A stretch of 64,000 nucleotides of DNA from Catenaria anguillulae PL171 (lineage: Eukaryota; Blastocladiomycota; Blastocladiomycetes; Blastocladiales; Catenariaceae): the NCBI GenBank assembly GCA_002102555.1, contig MCFL01000019.1, positions 1 through 64,000 of the forward strand, read 5' to 3'. Of the stretch, positions 10,080 through 61,590 are shown piece after piece (within the stretch, counting starts at the first letter, position 1; every line of letters begins with the position of its first letter). The translations under genes and the position numbers were made by a program. The notes under the pieces are model-generated. The model worked only from the letters and a program-made list of their open reading frames with translations, was not told where the DNA came from and made no database searches.

Positions 10080-12824
10080 TCACCCCCCTCCAGCGTGAGA
10101 CATCTAGTCAATCGCGCTTGCGTTTGGTGGCAGTGCGAGTCCGGTTCGCTTGCTGCTTTTTGCCCAATGAGCGGAGGTAGTCAGAGATGCACTTGCGCGT
10201 GTCAAAGTTTTCTTCGGGTTCCCACGAGTTTTGGGATTCGGGAAATCCTTCCCACTTGACGCGGTATTCGCGGCCAGTTGCTGTGTCACGATGATCAACG
10301 ATACGCTCCACAACGAAGGATTCGTCCGAGAGTACTCCATTGTGGGAGATCAAGCGGAGTTGGTTCATGGCGTACCGCCGTGGCAACAGCGAGCCAGTAG
10401 TGTCCCGAAGGATGTAGGCGCCGCCTCGGTTCCGACGGATGACCATGTATGGGCCTTCATATCGTGGGTCAAATTTCTTGTCCCGATCTTGTGTCAGTGT
10501 CATGACCATCGCTCCAACCGGGAGGTCGTCTTTCACAATTTTGTGCGATTTGCAGAGCCGCTCATGCGCCCGCTGTGCCATGGTTCTCGTTTGGCCTGCA
10601 ATGGCTGGGAACACAATCTCTGACATCAAACGCAAACGTGATTCCATTTCTTCTGGAGATAGTGGCCGCGCGCGAGAGTCTTCACCCCCCTCTCTCTCGA
10701 AAGAGAGTGGATTCGCAGCCCGCGCAAACATCAGGCTGAAAGGCGTCAAGCCGTGTCGCTCATGGACCTTTGTGTTGTATGCATACTGCACTGCCGGCAG
10801 CATAAACGGCCAGCGATCAAGCTCACCATCCAGCATTGGAGCTAGCATCTCCTTCGCCGTGCGCACCATGCGTTCCGCGGCCCCGTTCCCCTGGGGATGA
10901 TAAGGAGTAATGCGCCGGTGCTCAATCTGCGCCATGTCAAGCAGTCGTTGGCAAGTGGCATTGACAAATTCTGATCCATTGTCAGACTGCAGAATGCGAG
11001 GGAATCCAAAGGTCGTGAACAACGCCCAGACTGCGCGAGCCGTTTCTTGGGCCGAGGCTGCTCTGGCCGGCACCAGCCATGCAAAGCGGGTGCATATGTC
11101 AAGGACAACCACGGCTTTGCAATAACCGTCCGCCGTCAGCGGCAAGTCCATGGTATCAATTGCAAGGTGGTCCATTGGCAGGAGAGCTGTAATCGATTGA
11201 ATCGGGTGAAAGCCGTGCCTGGAAATGGTGTAGCGCATGCAGGGGATACAGCCCCGCACAGTCTCCAGACAATCAGCCTTGATTCCAGGCCACGACTTTC
11301 CTGAGCGCTGCAACAGTTTCACCATAGCGTTTGCACCATAATGCCCATGCTCGTGGGCACGGGTCAGAAGCGCACCTCGCTCCGACTCGGGGACCTCGAG
11401 CGCGTCAGGTTCTGCCTCCACCATCATGGGCGATGTTAGGAGCCACTCAGCTACGGAAATTTGATTTTGCGCGTTGTGCGCGGCCGGCCCGCTGAGGTTC
11501 GGTTCAGCGTTTGCAGGCTGGGCCGGCCCCGTAGCACTTGCTTCCAGCGACACATGATAGGTGCACAGGTTCTTGACGACAGCTAGGCCAAGGAACTCCG
11601 GTCCAGGCTCAGCAGCAGAGAGCCATGCCTCGGTTGAAATTGCTGGACCAGCATCCTCGGCGAGGTCAAAGTGCTCGAGCGCGTCAAGAGTAGGGCAGCC
11701 AACGACGTCATCGCCAGAGTCGTCCAGGCTGGTGTACTCCACGTCAGTGAGTGTGGCAAGGTACATGCGAAAGTCTCGCAGCAGGCATGTCGACCCATAC
11801 AATCTCGAGAGAATGTCAGGCAGTACATTCTCCGAACCAGGCAGATGCACGGGATCAAAATGCACATCCAAAAGGTCATTGATCCAAGTCTGCATCATCG
11901 GATTCAAGTCCTTTTGCGTGAACAGATGCGTCAGAGCCATGTGGTCCGTGAAGAGCGTGAAACGGCGACCAGCGAGATAGAAGCGGAAATGGCGGATCGC
12001 GAAGATGATGGCCAAAAGCTTGCGCTTTGTGGCGCTGTAGCGCCTTTCGGACGCCGACAGTGCACGTGAGAGCAGGGCAATGTAGCGTGGGTTTTCCCTG
12101 CTCCCTTGGAACAGAACAGCACCAATGCCCATGCTTGATGCGTCGGTCGCGACATGAAAGGGCTCGTCCCAGACTGGGTGCGCCAGCATGGGCGCCAACT
12201 TGACCAGGTCTTGCAGAGCCTTCCAAGCCGTGCTGCATTCTGGCGTCCACTGCAGCGGATCGCTCCTATCAATGCGCTTCGCTGTGCGCAGACGGTCAAG
12301 TGGGGCAGCAACATCGGCCAGCATGGGAATGAAGTCGCGGAGGTAGTTGACAAGTCTGAGGAAACGCTGCACGTCCTTGCCAGTGTCCGGCTCAGGCCAG
12401 GATTGGACTTGCATGATATGCGCCGGCGCGGGGCGGACACCATCAGCAGACACGATCACGCCAAGGTATTGGATTGAGCAGCGATAGAAGCTGCACTTGT
12501 CAAGGGTGAGCTTGAGGTTATACTTATTCAGGCGCTGAATAACGGCGAGCAGGTGCCCATGATGCTCATCAACTGTGGACGAGAAAATAATGATGTCGTC
12601 AACGTAGACACGGATGAAAGGCAAATCACGGAAAATGTCCGCCATGACCCGCTGAAATTGCGCCGACAGCGCTTTGAGTCCAAACGGTCCTCGTTTGAAT
12701 TGGTACTGAACACCACGCCAGAGAAAGCACAGTTTCTTCCGATCCTTTGGGTGCACTGAGAACTGATGGAACAAGGCCATGAGATCGAGGCAGGAAAAAA
12801 CGGCAGCACCAGCCGTTTCAACAA

Positions 12825-12897
12825 GGTCCCGTGGCCCAATGGCTAAGGCGCCTGACTACGGATCAAGAGATCGGAGGTTCGAATCCTCCCAGGATCG
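12825..12897 (+). tRNA. tRNA-Arg(ACG)-like unit of SINE A
   Basis: 73 nt with D-arm GCC/GGC, A box tggcccaatgg, anticodon loop CTACGGA (anticodon ACG at 12858-12860) and a perfect five-pair T arm with ggttcgaatcc. One mismatch in the acceptor stem (plus a G-T pair) and one in the anticodon stem suggest a tRNA-derived relic rather than a functional gene. Confidence 0.7.
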
Positions 12898-12906
12898 TTT
12901 AAAAAG

Positions 12907-12979
12907 GTTCCACTGGTCTAGTGGTAATGACGTCTGCTTTACATGCAGAAGATCGCTGGTTCAAACCCAGCGTGGAACA
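12907..12979 (+). tRNA. tRNA-Val(TAC) unit of SINE A
   Basis: 73 nt folding as a full cloverleaf: seven acceptor pairs (gttccac/gtggaac), D stem gtc/gac, anticodon stem tctgc/gcaga with loop TTTACAT (anticodon TAC at 12940-12942), and T arm gctgg/ccagc. It could be functional by structure, but it lies within a retroposed unit and is followed by the SINE tail. Confidence 0.75.
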
Positions 12980-13111
12980 TGGACGATTTCTTGTCTTAAT
13001 GCATGCAGTAGCGATTGAAAAAAAAAAGCACCAGCCGTTTCGGAAATGTGCTCGCGAATCCGCGGCAGTGGGTGAGGGTCCTCTGGGGTGTGCGAGTTGA
13101 GGTAGCGAGGA

Positions 13112-13900: not shown

Positions 13901-14237
13901 TGTTGAGACTGGGAAAGTCTACTAGAACAGACTATATAGTACGACCTGACACTCTGTTCGAGTTGAGTGGCAGTAGTAGAAAGGTGTGGAGGGGGACTGG
14001 CTCATATACATAGTCCAGTCCCTCGCCAGGGTTATTGACACACACACAAGAGACACAAGCACTAATGGGCTGAGACATGAGAGCAATCATGAGTCTTAAT
14101 GCATGCAGTAGCGATGGAAAAAAAAAATGAGAGCAATCATGAGACGTGACACGCGAGACATGGCTACGCTAGACACGAGCCATCACATCAATACACCTGG
14201 GCTTGCTCGCTTGCCACTAAACCCCACGCACACAACA
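13901..14237 (-). repeat. Gypsy-2 3' LTR (with 50-bp insertion)
   Basis: 337 bp against 287 bp for its partner; the 50-bp excess is exactly the 33-bp insert at 14094-14126 plus its 17-bp target duplication. Confidence 0.93.
14094..14126 (+). mobile_element. 33-bp insertion of the SINE A 3' tail
   Basis: Consists only of tcttaatgcatgcagtagcg, then atgg and poly(A). It is flanked by the perfect 17-bp duplication atgagagcaatcatgag (14077-14093 and 14127-14143). The empty site is preserved in the partner LTR at 36250-36536. Confidence 0.93.
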
Positions 14238-37394: not shown

Positions 37395-37439
37395 GTTTCT
37401 TGTCTTAATGCATGCAGTAGCGATTGAAAAAAAAAAAAA
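37395..37439 (+). mobile_element. 45-bp insertion of the SINE A 3' tail
   Basis: gtttcttgtcttaatgcatg, then cagtagcgattg and poly(A), flanked by aacagtttgagccc (37381-37394 and 37440-37453). Same 3' end as the tRNA-dimer SINE. Confidence 0.9.
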
Positions 37440-39536: not shown

Positions 39537-39632
39537 GATTAAGAGTCTCAAACGGATTACCATGCTTGCCGGCGGAATGTCACAGCCATAACTGGTGAGT
39601 TCATGTCCTTCGTTCCTTGCTCTCATGGTCGT

Positions 39633-39832
39633 GCTGCTGTTGGCCATTTGAAGCCTTCAGTTCAGATTCGTGTTTCGCGCTGCTGTTGGACGTGTTCCTC
39701 CAGTTCAGATTCGTGCTGCTGCTGGCCATTTGAAGCCTTCACTTCAGCTTCGTGTCTCGCGCCGCTGTTGGACTTGTTCCTCCAGTTCAGATTCGTGTTG
39801 GTGTTGGACTTGCTCCTTCAGTTCAGACTTGT
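39633..39832 (+). repeat. 82-bp tandem repeat, two copies plus a partial third
   Basis: Units 39633-39714 and 39715-39796 both begin gctgctg-tggccatttgaag and end tccagttcagattcgt; a shorter related third unit follows. It sits where copia gag is expected, and the 39537-40121 interval has no recognisable gag. Confidence 0.8.
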
Positions 39833-45400: not shown

Positions 45401-48022
45401 ACCCACCAACACGCCAGTAGCCGTCTTCTACGACACTGCCACTTATGCGCTCAACTCGATCAAGACGACCATCCTGACCACCCGGGTCGCCGATCTTCGC
45501 TACAACCTCAGCCAGCCACCATCGAGCGAGCGTTTCCATGTTGCCTGTGCCATCACCAGCATCGCTCAGTGTGCCGTTCGCTGGTGGGTCAACCCGCTGT
45601 CTCACCCGCCCTCCACGATCATTGCGCGCGGCCTGGCCGCCTCCCCAGTACTCAACCTTCTCCCAATACTAAATCAGTCCCTTGTATCCATCCACCTTGT
45701 TGGCCGATTTGACCCATTGAATGTTGCTCCAGAGAAGGATACCCCACTCGAGGCTGTAGTACCTCACCCTACCCTCCACCGTTTACGTTCTCACCTTTTC
45801 TGTGCCTCTGTTTTCTCTGTCTCTCCACTTGTTTCTCTTGTTTGCTTTCAGGATCAAAACAGCACCCCCTCGCGATATGCAAATGCGTTTGCCTCGGTTC
45901 GTCACCTACTAGCCAAGACTTGCCCACGCCGAGGCCGCCTCCACAATGCCTTGGCTGACGCCACTGAATCCATTGCCACCTGGTGTACATCGCTCGGTCC
46001 GCTTGACCATCTCCCTTTACAACCAAGTCTTGCCCTTGCGCCCAAGCACCATTTGGGGCAGCTGATGGTGTTTCTGGACCATCACGGCCGACCTGCTTTT
46101 GGTGTCTGCACGTTTGTTGACAATAAATCGGACCCGGCTGACCCACTCATCACCCTGCGTCATACCACCAAGTGCACTTGTGCAGCCATGGACCGTTTCG
46201 ACGTGCCGGATAATTGCATACTGCTCCACCTTTGCCTAGATTGCAGTGATCCTCGCAGCTGCCAGTATGCGCCGGTTGGGGCTGACTCGCCTGACTGTGT
46301 GATAACTCTACCGCTCCATTGCGCACGCCCTATCTCTGCCCGCCAAGTGATATCACGACGCGACGGACCCGATGCCTACATTGTGGACGCGCCCAACCAT
46401 TGTCTCCCGGAGCACTGCCCCTACTTCACCACATTCCACCCGTTTCAGGTTGACATGGATGTAGATGACGAAGTGGAACACGCTCAGCATGAGCAAGCAT
46501 TCGCATTTTTGCCATCCACTTGCACCGCACCGCCTACCACGTTGCATCGACTCAATCTAGCCCTTGACTGCTGGACGGATGGGTCCCTGCGTCCTGCTAC
46601 CGACACTTTGGCTGCATCCATGGGTTTTGGGGCACATTGTCCTGAGCTCGGACTGGAACTGTTTGGCCGCCTACCACCCGCTCGTACCAGCTCCACTCGC
46701 CCGGAACTGGCCGCAGTCATTGCGCTTGTTGACAAGCTCCCGGATGGCTCCAAGGCAAAGGTTCATACGGATTCCGCAGCCGTCACGGTTGTTGCGCCAA
46801 CATTTTTGACCCTATCCGACATCGAGGCCGTTGCAACGCGGCGACCGTCGCCACTCCATGACTTATTGCTCATCCTCCGGGCCATCTCAAGGCAGAAAGA
46901 CATCCAGTTAGAGTTCGTCAAGGTCAAGGGCCATGCGGGCGACGTGGGAAACGAGAAGGCGGATGTACTCGCCAACCGTGGCGCAAGCCAACGGCAAATC
47001 TCAACCTGCGACAGGATTTCTTGAACACGGTAGATTTTGGTGCAGTTGTGCAGGTCGGTCATGAGCTTGTGTACGCAGGTGTAGGGCGGGCAGTGCGCGA
47101 ATTGCAGCGTGTTGGAGCGCGCATCAAGCTCTTTGGGTACATGTGTCAACTGGTAGACCAACCAGATCTCGTCACGTTCGACAAAGCAATTCGTAACGGC
47201 CGCAAGGCAACGGGCTTCTTTGCATCATTCGCCGACGACGCTTCAGTCACTTTCCGGTGCAAAGTGCTCACTGGGCGCCTACCCACTCGTGCCCAACTAC
47301 ACAAGTACTGGCCCAACCGGGTTCCGTCCGGCTCGTGCCCCCTTTGTAGTGCCATGGACGATCAGGATCACTGGTATGCGTGCCCAGAGCTTGCACTCCA
47401 TCTTTGGACGACCAAGGTGGACACACATGCACATGTACAAGCACTTTTGCGCCGCCACCGACTTCAACCATCATCCGAGTGTGCAACGTTGCTGGTTGAG
47501 CACATCATGGCTGCCCAACGGATCCGGGCAACTGCAGCGTGCGTAGTTGATGCAGGTTTGCGTCGCGATTTTCCTACGCTGGCCCCAGTCCTTGCGCAGA
47601 TTGTCATGATTGCATCGTCCACAATCAGATTGGTGCTCTGGAAACAGCGGTGCAAGCTGGTTGGACCCATAGACGCCGCCACAGATGATGCGACTGCAGA
47701 CCGCCCACGCTTACCATGCCGCTGCTGCCCAGTGCGGGCTGCACCAATTCAAAAGCCCCCAACACTTCGTTTGTCACATGCAGCCTCACACTTTGTCCAC
47801 GAGGTGCATGTAGGATCGCGTCCACTGCTTGGCTCTGCATCAGACTCAATTGCACCTGTATCGCTTGGCGAATGGCGAGCCCACTACGCATTCCCTGGAC
47901 TGGTAGTCCCCAGATTTGGCTTCTCAGAGTCTCGGCATCGCTTTGCAATCCGCCTTGGGGTACAAATGGATCCCCACCAAGTTTTTGTTCCATCTCTTTC
48001 ACCTGCTGCTCTTCATTACTGA
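42423..48022 (+). pseudogene. LINE-3 ORF2: endonuclease, RT, RNase H, zinc motif
   Basis: ATG at 42423 overlaps the ORF1 TGA (ATGA). Endonuclease 42600-43300 (IANVRGSQAQDR, TETKLSKK, VIGVYAPP, AGDMNERDD, RLDRVYVS, FDHSRL). Frameshifts near 43680 and 44330, then one 928-codon frame (44238-47024) with RT (EEGYTGDVDAMRPITLLDCAS, GIPQGAVESPFLWN, GYIDDAIFFARS) and RNase H (DCWTDGSL, STRPELAAVIAL, KVKGHAGDVGNEKADVLA). A final shift near 47000 leads to 47021-48022 with CPLCSAMDDQDHWYAC. Three shifts in 5.6 kb; this is the best preserved ORF2 here. Confidence 0.9.
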
Positions 48023-48586
48023 CCTGATTGGCAACCCTTCCGACCCTTGCTCCAAGAAACAATGCATTCCCTATCAGTTTATCCTTGTCCTGCTTCTGCA
48101 ACTCTCTTTTCTCTGATTTGATTAACCTCCCTCCCGCAGTCTTCTGTATCTCTCGTGCCTGATTGTTGAGGCTACATCCCAGTTGGCTTTTCCTCTTCTT
48201 GTTCATTGAATTTTGAGCAGTCTCAATGTGGCTCCATCTGCATTCTCTTGATCTTATCCTTCTTGCTTTTCCCCCTCATCCCATGTTCCCCTCTCCTATG
48301 CCTCATCCCACATTCCTTTTATCACCCTTTCTCTCCCTTTCGCTCATCTCATTTCCCATCCCATTTCCCATCCCATTGTCCCCACTCCCCAATCACACCA
48401 TGGCCTTGTGCCCCTATTACCAATTGCTTGCACTCTATCCTACTTGCTTTTGCCATTTCTATGGGTGTATTTGGACCTCTATCCCCCCAGCTTCTGTAAT
48501 TTCACAAAGAACAAAGTGTTGATTATGTCCAGCATAATACATGTAATAGTGATTTAAAAAAAAAAAAAAATGAGGATTGGGACTAC

Positions 48587-56024: not shown

Positions 56025-56396
56025 TTTTTTTTTACATTTTACCTCAGGACAATTACACATATGATAGTGACTTTCAAGAACACACAACACAAACTTGGGG
56101 CTTGGGGGATGTACTTGATCGTCTTGTGCTTTGACATAACCAGGAACATGGGTGGAACCGAGGATGCTTGCCGAGAGGGGGCTCAGATTGTTGAGTTGAG
56201 TGGGCGGGATCCACCCCGGCGGCTTGGACCCAAAACAACTGAAATTTAACTTGTGCTTGGCAACCAAACCAAATCCACACACAAGCAAGTGGCAAGGACC
56301 ATAGAAACACTATACCAGAATCGCCGCCTGTGGGGTTCGAACCCACGACGTCCACAGTGGACGCCCGGCGCCTTAACCACTGGGCCACGACAGCCC
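56025..56396 (-). mobile_element. SINE family B copy 2, tRNA-like head
   Basis: 372-bp insertion flanked by atcaatcacaagagtt (56009-56024 and 56397-56412). The tRNA-like head occupies 56396-56323 on the minus strand: A box tggcccagtgg, B box ggttcgaaccc. Body of about 280 nt, tail acaattgtcctgaggtaaaa type, poly(A). The head begins exactly at the duplication, so the copy is full length. Confidence 0.9.
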
Positions 56397-61199: not shown

Positions 61200-61575
61200 T
61201 TTTTTTTTAAATTTTACCTCAGGACAATTGTACATATGGCGACAATCCATGAACAAATACACAACACAAACTTGAAGCTTGGAGGGACTTGGACTTGAGG
61301 ATCTTGTACTTGACACAGGCGGGAACACAGACGGACACGTGGTGCTTGCCAAGAGGGGGCTCAGATTGAAGTTGAGCAGGCGGGATCCACCCCGGACAGC
61401 TTGGACCTGAAACAACTTGAATTTAACTTGTGCTTGGCAACCAAACCAAATCCACGCACAAGCGAGTGGCAAGGACTATAGAAATTCACTATACCAGAAT
61501 TGCCGCCTGTGGGGTTTGAACCCACGACCTCCACAGTGGATGCCTGGCGCCTTAACCACTGGGCCACGACAGCCC
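61200..61575 (-). mobile_element. SINE family B copy 3
   Basis: 376-bp insertion in copia-2 integrase flanked by caggcggcacgaagt (61185-61199 and 61576-61590). tRNA-like head at 61575-61502 (minus) with the same A box as copy 2 and B box ggttcaaaccc. Same body and tail. Confidence 0.9.
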
Positions 61576-61590
61576 CAGGCGGCACGAAGT

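Follow-up and report, generated by a model that had tools for sequence, protein, structure and literature searches.

A single-copy fusion of two whole tRNA precursors to a LINE 3' end in Catenaria anguillulae

Structure of the insert and its target site

We analyzed a window of 64,000 nt (the whole stretch of Catenaria anguillulae PL171 DNA), in which a Gypsy-type pol open reading frame is interrupted by a short insert composed of two tRNA copies and the 3' end of a LINE. The features considered are as follows, with all coordinates referring to the window:

10108..12855, minus strand: target of the insertion, the Gypsy-type pol ORF interrupted by the insert, in which RT, RNase H, integrase and chromodomain were matched
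12805..12819, no strand: target-site duplication, 5' copy, 15 nt, identical to 13027-13041 and single in the empty paralogous sites
12820-13026, plus strand: whole insert, 207 nt, comprising AACAA + tRNA-Arg(ACG) + TTTAAAAAG + tRNA-Val(TAC) + trailer + LINE 3' end with poly(A)
12820..12824, plus strand: 5' leader AACAA of the tRNA-Arg precursor, common to 20 of 28 tRNA-Arg(ACG) loci
12825..12897, plus strand: tRNA-Arg(ACG) retrocopy, by ARAGORN and Rfam, with 2 substitutions relative to the common gene
12898..12906, plus strand: 9-nt spacer TTTAAAAAG, TTT, then A's, then (A)G
12907..12979, plus strand: tRNA-Val(TAC) retrocopy, by ARAGORN and Rfam, with 3 substitutions relative to the gene C279:90973-91058
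12980..12989, plus strand: trailer TGGACGATTT, for which the corresponding tRNA-Val gene sequence is TGGACGGATTTT
12985..13017, plus strand: LINE 3' end, the final 31-33 nt ahead of the poly(A), 100% identical over 43 nt (A run included) to two LINE copies
13018..13027, plus strand: A10 run, the final A of which doubles as base 1 of the 3' duplication
13027..13041, no strand: target-site duplication, 3' copy, identical to 12805..12819

The pol ORF as listed includes 36 terminal nt that fall within the insert. Both tRNAs were called by ARAGORN (12825-12897 with the Arg anticodon acg, 12907-12979 with the Val anticodon tac) and scored 50.5 and 66 bits, respectively, against Rfam RF00005 (cut-off 29). 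Both are whole and carry precursor ends, without CCA. The two tRNAs and the LINE 3' end share one orientation, with the LINE part last, and a single pair of direct repeats encloses all three transcript copies. The tRNA-related 5' head is predicted to contain an internal Pol III promoter. An earlier note on this DNA had described two complete tRNA-like units with a 9-nt spacer, a perfect 15-bp target duplication and a LINE-like tail, and our results bear out this description: the two tRNA methods agree and the spacer is 9 nt long, AGCACCAGCCGTTTC is repeated exactly at 12805-12819 and 13027-13041, and the tail (12985-13027) is shared in full with two LINE copies, the 3' UTRs of which continue upstream. 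Three of the five substitutions in the retrocopied tRNAs (12825-12979) are CG to TG or CA changes which, with only five substitutions to consider, would be as expected from the decay of methylated C.

When both flanks were used as a query against the genome, four paralogous target places were recovered, two of them 95-96% and two 73-82% identical, all of which are uninterrupted and lack the insert. The closer pair (L110 and L111) present the 15-nt stretch once, with one mismatch, while the more distant pair (L112 and L113) present a matching but diverged stretch, again once. As these empty sites hold the stretch singly and without the insert, the 15-nt repeat is a true target duplication.

Copy number and parent genes

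In the 41-Mb genome assembly, the full-length insert matches only itself, although a copy may lie in a gap between the 457 contigs. It should be noted that 40 of the 94 first-look candidates from this whole-insert search were scored. A query comprising the spacer, tRNA-Val and trailer, however, returned two candidates in all, namely the insert and a tRNA-Val gene, and a second dimer is therefore unlikely among the unscored candidates. The LINE tail, when up to 2 mismatches were allowed, was found at 48 genomic sites (reversed-pattern control, 0). All 48 were read, corresponding to 44 distinct flank sequences, and a tRNA was present at one of them, this being the insert. Likewise, a B box located 10-40 nt above related tails was matched once in the genome, again at the insert (reversed control, 0), with a pattern that covers neither the GTGGTAG variants of the tail nor longer stretches of the LINE. 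Recurrent tRNA/LINE chimeras were considered and rejected within the reach of this pattern, as it was matched solely at the insert. A wider tail pattern gave 121 sites (reversed control, 0), not all of which were listed and most of which were left unread. Chance origin of the arrangement was also rejected, given the reversed-pattern controls of 0, the exact 15-nt duplication and the empty sites.

As a positive control for copy number, we used a tRNA-headed SINE from the same window (61240-61578, minus strand), for which 44 matches were listed, its own among them, and 18 of these were close to full length. Many dispersed copies, as expected of a SINE, were accordingly sought for the insert, and one copy was found as compared to 44 for the control. 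In its tRNA head, LINE tail, A run and target duplication, the insert resembles a member of a SINE family that amplifies with a dimeric head, yet a similar DNA search yielded 44 matches for a real SINE and a single copy here, such that this explanation can practically be set aside. Since no second copy was found in the assembly, the insert is a single fusion and not a repeat family, and since multiple copies, a defining feature of SINEs, were searched for and not found, we do not class it as a SINE. The earlier note had read it as one. What holds of that reading is the joint retroposition of two whole tRNA units and a LINE tail, in one piece and with a target duplication. What does not hold is the family, as the insert was found once and 1 of the 48 tail sites has the tRNA pair attached, the outcome under which the note itself would call it a one-off chimera.

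Other repeats in the window were recorded as well. The control SINE is of a conventional tRNA-headed type of ~320-340 nt with two window copies (61240-61578 and 56079-56396, both on the minus strand), each flanked by a candidate target duplication (15 and 16 nt, respectively). At 39629-39797, a tandem repeat presents an 82-nt unit in ~2 copies with 93% matches.

We then considered the parent genes. Among the matches listed, 34 tRNA-Arg-like sequences were found besides the insert, 28 of which were read with their flanks. In these 28 tRNA-Arg(ACG) loci, the AACAA leader was found in 20, a trailer starting with TTTT in 17 and both in 11 (L002-L012). These counts were made by eye, and a scripted recount gave 19, 16 and 11, as it misread L023, where the tRNA is short of one base, and L020, where a second GGATCG lies downstream. 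The sole other tRNA-Val(TAC) match in the genome is a solitary gene (C279:90973-91058), the trailer of which, TGGACGGATTTTG, equals that of the insert except for one G. The genome-wide tRNA list covers the 63 candidates scored out of 1333. Two further observations were made on the tRNA genes. In L020 and L029, the downstream flanks of the tRNA-Arg genes match those of other copies (L003 and L025, respectively), while the upstream flank switches at the tRNA 5' end. Contigs C178 and C341 contain tandem tRNA genes with a period of ~5.66 kb, and a related set is found in C436.

A single tRNA head is usual in known SINEs, as the earlier note fairly stated, and an exception in print is Twin of Culex pipiens, reportedly a repeat family with two tRNA-Arg-like units, which its authors are said to ascribe to a dimeric tRNA precursor. 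The earlier note, pointing to dicistronic tRNA genes with short spacers in yeasts, had suggested that the insert may derive from a dimeric tRNA transcript. This would have been a tRNA-Arg/tRNA-Val transcript captured by one jump from the LINE tail, with the parent gene pair since lost or unassembled. The 9-nt spacer, which lacks TTTT, would permit read-through, and the origin ascribed to Twin also speaks for this reading. However, the spacer and tRNA-Val query finds only the insert and the solitary gene, the TTT of the Arg trailer has its match in one gene and the Val trailer in another, and the A's of the spacer match neither. Nor did ARAGORN find an Arg-Val gene pair, with the same spacer or otherwise, in 30 loci, the insert itself aside: the nearest tRNA to tRNA-Arg(ACG) is at least 115 nt away or is absent from the locus in the 28 loci, and the tRNA-Val gene has no tRNA neighbor inside its 3,086-nt locus. 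With no such pair found in the assembly by these searches, we regard a dicistronic origin as improbable.

Joints between the parts and the LINE stop

The joint between the LINE and tRNA-Val lies within 12985-12989, where (G)ATTT occurs in both the LINE subtype represented by L033/L034 and the tRNA-Val trailer. Because the tRNA-Val gene has one extra G, the homology at this joint is uncertain and the overlap can be read in two ways, either as 1 nt with a shortened trailer or as 4-5 nt with one slipped G. At the joint between tRNA-Val and tRNA-Arg, the TTT equals the first bases of the tRNA-Arg trailer and the (A)G is as found ahead of the tRNA-Val gene, while the A's in between have no source in either gene. 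Oligoadenylation of pre-tRNA is part of nuclear surveillance. The A's of the spacer may come from an oligoadenylated pre-tRNA, from nontemplated addition or from the poly(A) of an earlier insertion. R2-type enzymes jump between separate templates, and nontemplated addition is required for template jumping by an R2 enzyme (PMC8857657).

The poly(A) of an earlier insertion corresponds to the main rival of the double template jump that we favor below, namely two nested insertions. Here, a polyadenylated pre-tRNA-Arg retrocopy would have been inserted first, producing the 15-nt duplication, and a chimera of pre-tRNA-Val and the LINE tail would then have entered its poly(A), the duplication that it made being masked by the A runs. 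A's are indeed present between the tRNAs (TTTAAAAAG) as well as at the end, taking those of the spacer as an earlier Arg poly(A) fits the duplications equally well, and the same alternative has been offered for other triple chimeras (PMC4476161). Nonetheless, two rare events within 100 nt are required, and no tRNA-Arg copy trailed by TTTAAAA was found among the 28 loci read of the 34 Arg-like matches. We thus consider nested insertions unlikely, although less so than any of the other alternatives.

For the LINE itself, the C-terminal ORF of one copy of the tail family shows 49% identity over 294 residues to window positions 46862-48019. The latter ORF gave no Pfam match, while the window ORFs neighboring it contain endonuclease, reverse transcriptase and RNase H domains, and their order suggests that all belong to one LINE. 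We measured how far the LINE reaches above the CTTAATGC block in the 44 distinct flanks, examining 130 nt, and merged those pairs that shared insertion flanks (L058/L059, L050/L051 and L093/L109). Seven insertions end 2, 8 (the insert), 9, 9, 16, 20 and 20 nt above the block, whereas one ends at 52 nt, an irregular one ends at 84 nt and the remaining 32 reach at least 111 nt. Of the six short insertions besides the insert, five are flanked by direct repeats that are exact over 12-18 nt, while the sixth, L106, showed no direct repeat within the 251 nt fetched. As seven insertions end within 20 nt of the block, the LINE is often abandoned 25-43 nt into its RNA, the A run uncounted, although it should be considered that this grouping was seen post hoc. 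The insert looks like the same LINE stop, followed by a template jump.

Several side observations concern the same LINE. Two micro-insertions in the window (14093-14127 and 37396-37436) consist of its final 25-32 nt and poly(A), and are flanked by exact direct repeats of 17 and 14 nt, respectively. In the LINE 3' UTR (for example, L042:1425-1532 and window 48453-48555), a GTGY...RCAY-type pairing is seen between two parts, with one pair covarying on both sides (UA in 8/15 and CG in 7/15 sequences). Individual copies of the LINE 3' end fold into a stem; as the consensus fold of 15 copies is weak (-2.22 kcal/mol), we do not use it as evidence. The RNA fold of the whole insert was uninformative (z of -1.77).

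Considered together, the position of the LINE break within the stop hot spot, the precursor ends of both tRNAs, the empty sites, the single copy and the lack of a gene pair argue that the insert is a tripartite retrocopy, probably (at about 70%) produced by one LINE integration with two template jumps, from LINE RNA to pre-tRNA-Val and on to pre-tRNA-Arg. Target-primed reverse transcription with two jumps is also the simplest account of the insert. In such an event, the reverse transcriptase would start at the poly(A) end of the LINE RNA on the nicked target and quit this RNA after ~31-33 nt. It would then engage the 3' end of pre-tRNA-Val, (G)AUUU being present on both RNAs at the joint, and copy this precursor until near its 5' end, where a few A's would be added or copied. 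In a second jump, the enzyme would engage the UUU end of pre-tRNA-Arg and copy it up to its leader, upon which repair would seal the insertion. After integration, the chimera did not spread, for which poor termination may be the reason: no T4 occurs within the insert, and the first one is found 591 nt past its end. Alternatively, the RNAs could have been linked to one another before copying, through ligation or another kind of RNA recombination, and then reverse transcribed once as a single molecule. For same-strand chimeras, ligation of RNAs is an alternative raised in PMC13174262, but such joining accounts neither for the additional A's at one of the joints nor for a break that coincides with the LINE stop hot spot, and we find it very improbable. 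The insert is, in any case, one event only, and alone cannot demonstrate recurrence.

Comparison with known chimeras and SINEs

Chimeras made by double jumps are already known. One tripartite case is described in Magnaporthe grisea (WEIRD/Mg-SINE/MGL, with 14-bp repeats) and two in mouse (B2/U6/L1, with 15-16-bp repeats) in PMC2104539. Like these, the insert presents three copies that all point the same way and end with the LINE 3' part, within one pair of direct repeats. It differs in that both of its upstream parts are whole tRNA precursors, and in the length of its LINE part, which is 31-33 nt as compared to 230-5461 nt in Magnaporthe. The same paper reports no microhomology and gives a GCC*A/U switch motif (PMC2104539), whereas the LINE/Val joint of the insert has a shared (G)ATTT and lacks the motif, a difference that counts against the proposed double jump.

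Human tRNA/LINE-1 chimeras (n = 21) also have a tRNA fused to a LINE within one target duplication. They typically contain half tRNAs, mostly antisense (PMC13174262), whereas the insert contains two whole precursors in the sense orientation, which again counts against the proposed double jump. In the U6/LINE chimeras of several LINE clades, as in the insert, a Pol III RNA lies 5' of a truncated LINE and template switching is proposed; these chimeras hold one snRNA as compared to two tRNAs here, and the triple chimeras mentioned in the passages considered appear there without a tRNA pair (PMC4476161). In the open-licence literature, we found no description of a LINE tail to which two complete pre-tRNAs are fused. 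The insert works like these known chimeras, and what is new is the tandem of two whole pre-tRNAs, carried by a LINE remnant of 31-33 nt.

According to one proposal, a SINE family begins when a LINE enzyme switches from LINE RNA to tRNA-derived RNA (PMC4476161). The insert offers such a LINE-to-tRNA joint in one copy with an empty site, identifiable parents and a measurable stop hot spot. At even odds, we consider it a SINE at birth, that is, a copy of the founder type that combines a dimeric tRNA head with a LINE tail, made on site by relay of the LINE enzyme over two tRNA precursors, with no need for a dimeric gene. If so, stall sites near the 3' end of LINE RNA would be a birthplace of new SINEs. 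Like Twin, the insert is a tRNA dimer in a retroposed unit; unlike Twin, it is one copy, its two tRNAs differ from each other, and the search for a dimeric gene found none. It offers a path by which a dimeric tRNA head can arise with no dimeric gene involved and, were it indeed a SINE at birth, SINEs such as Twin would need no dimeric tRNA precursor.
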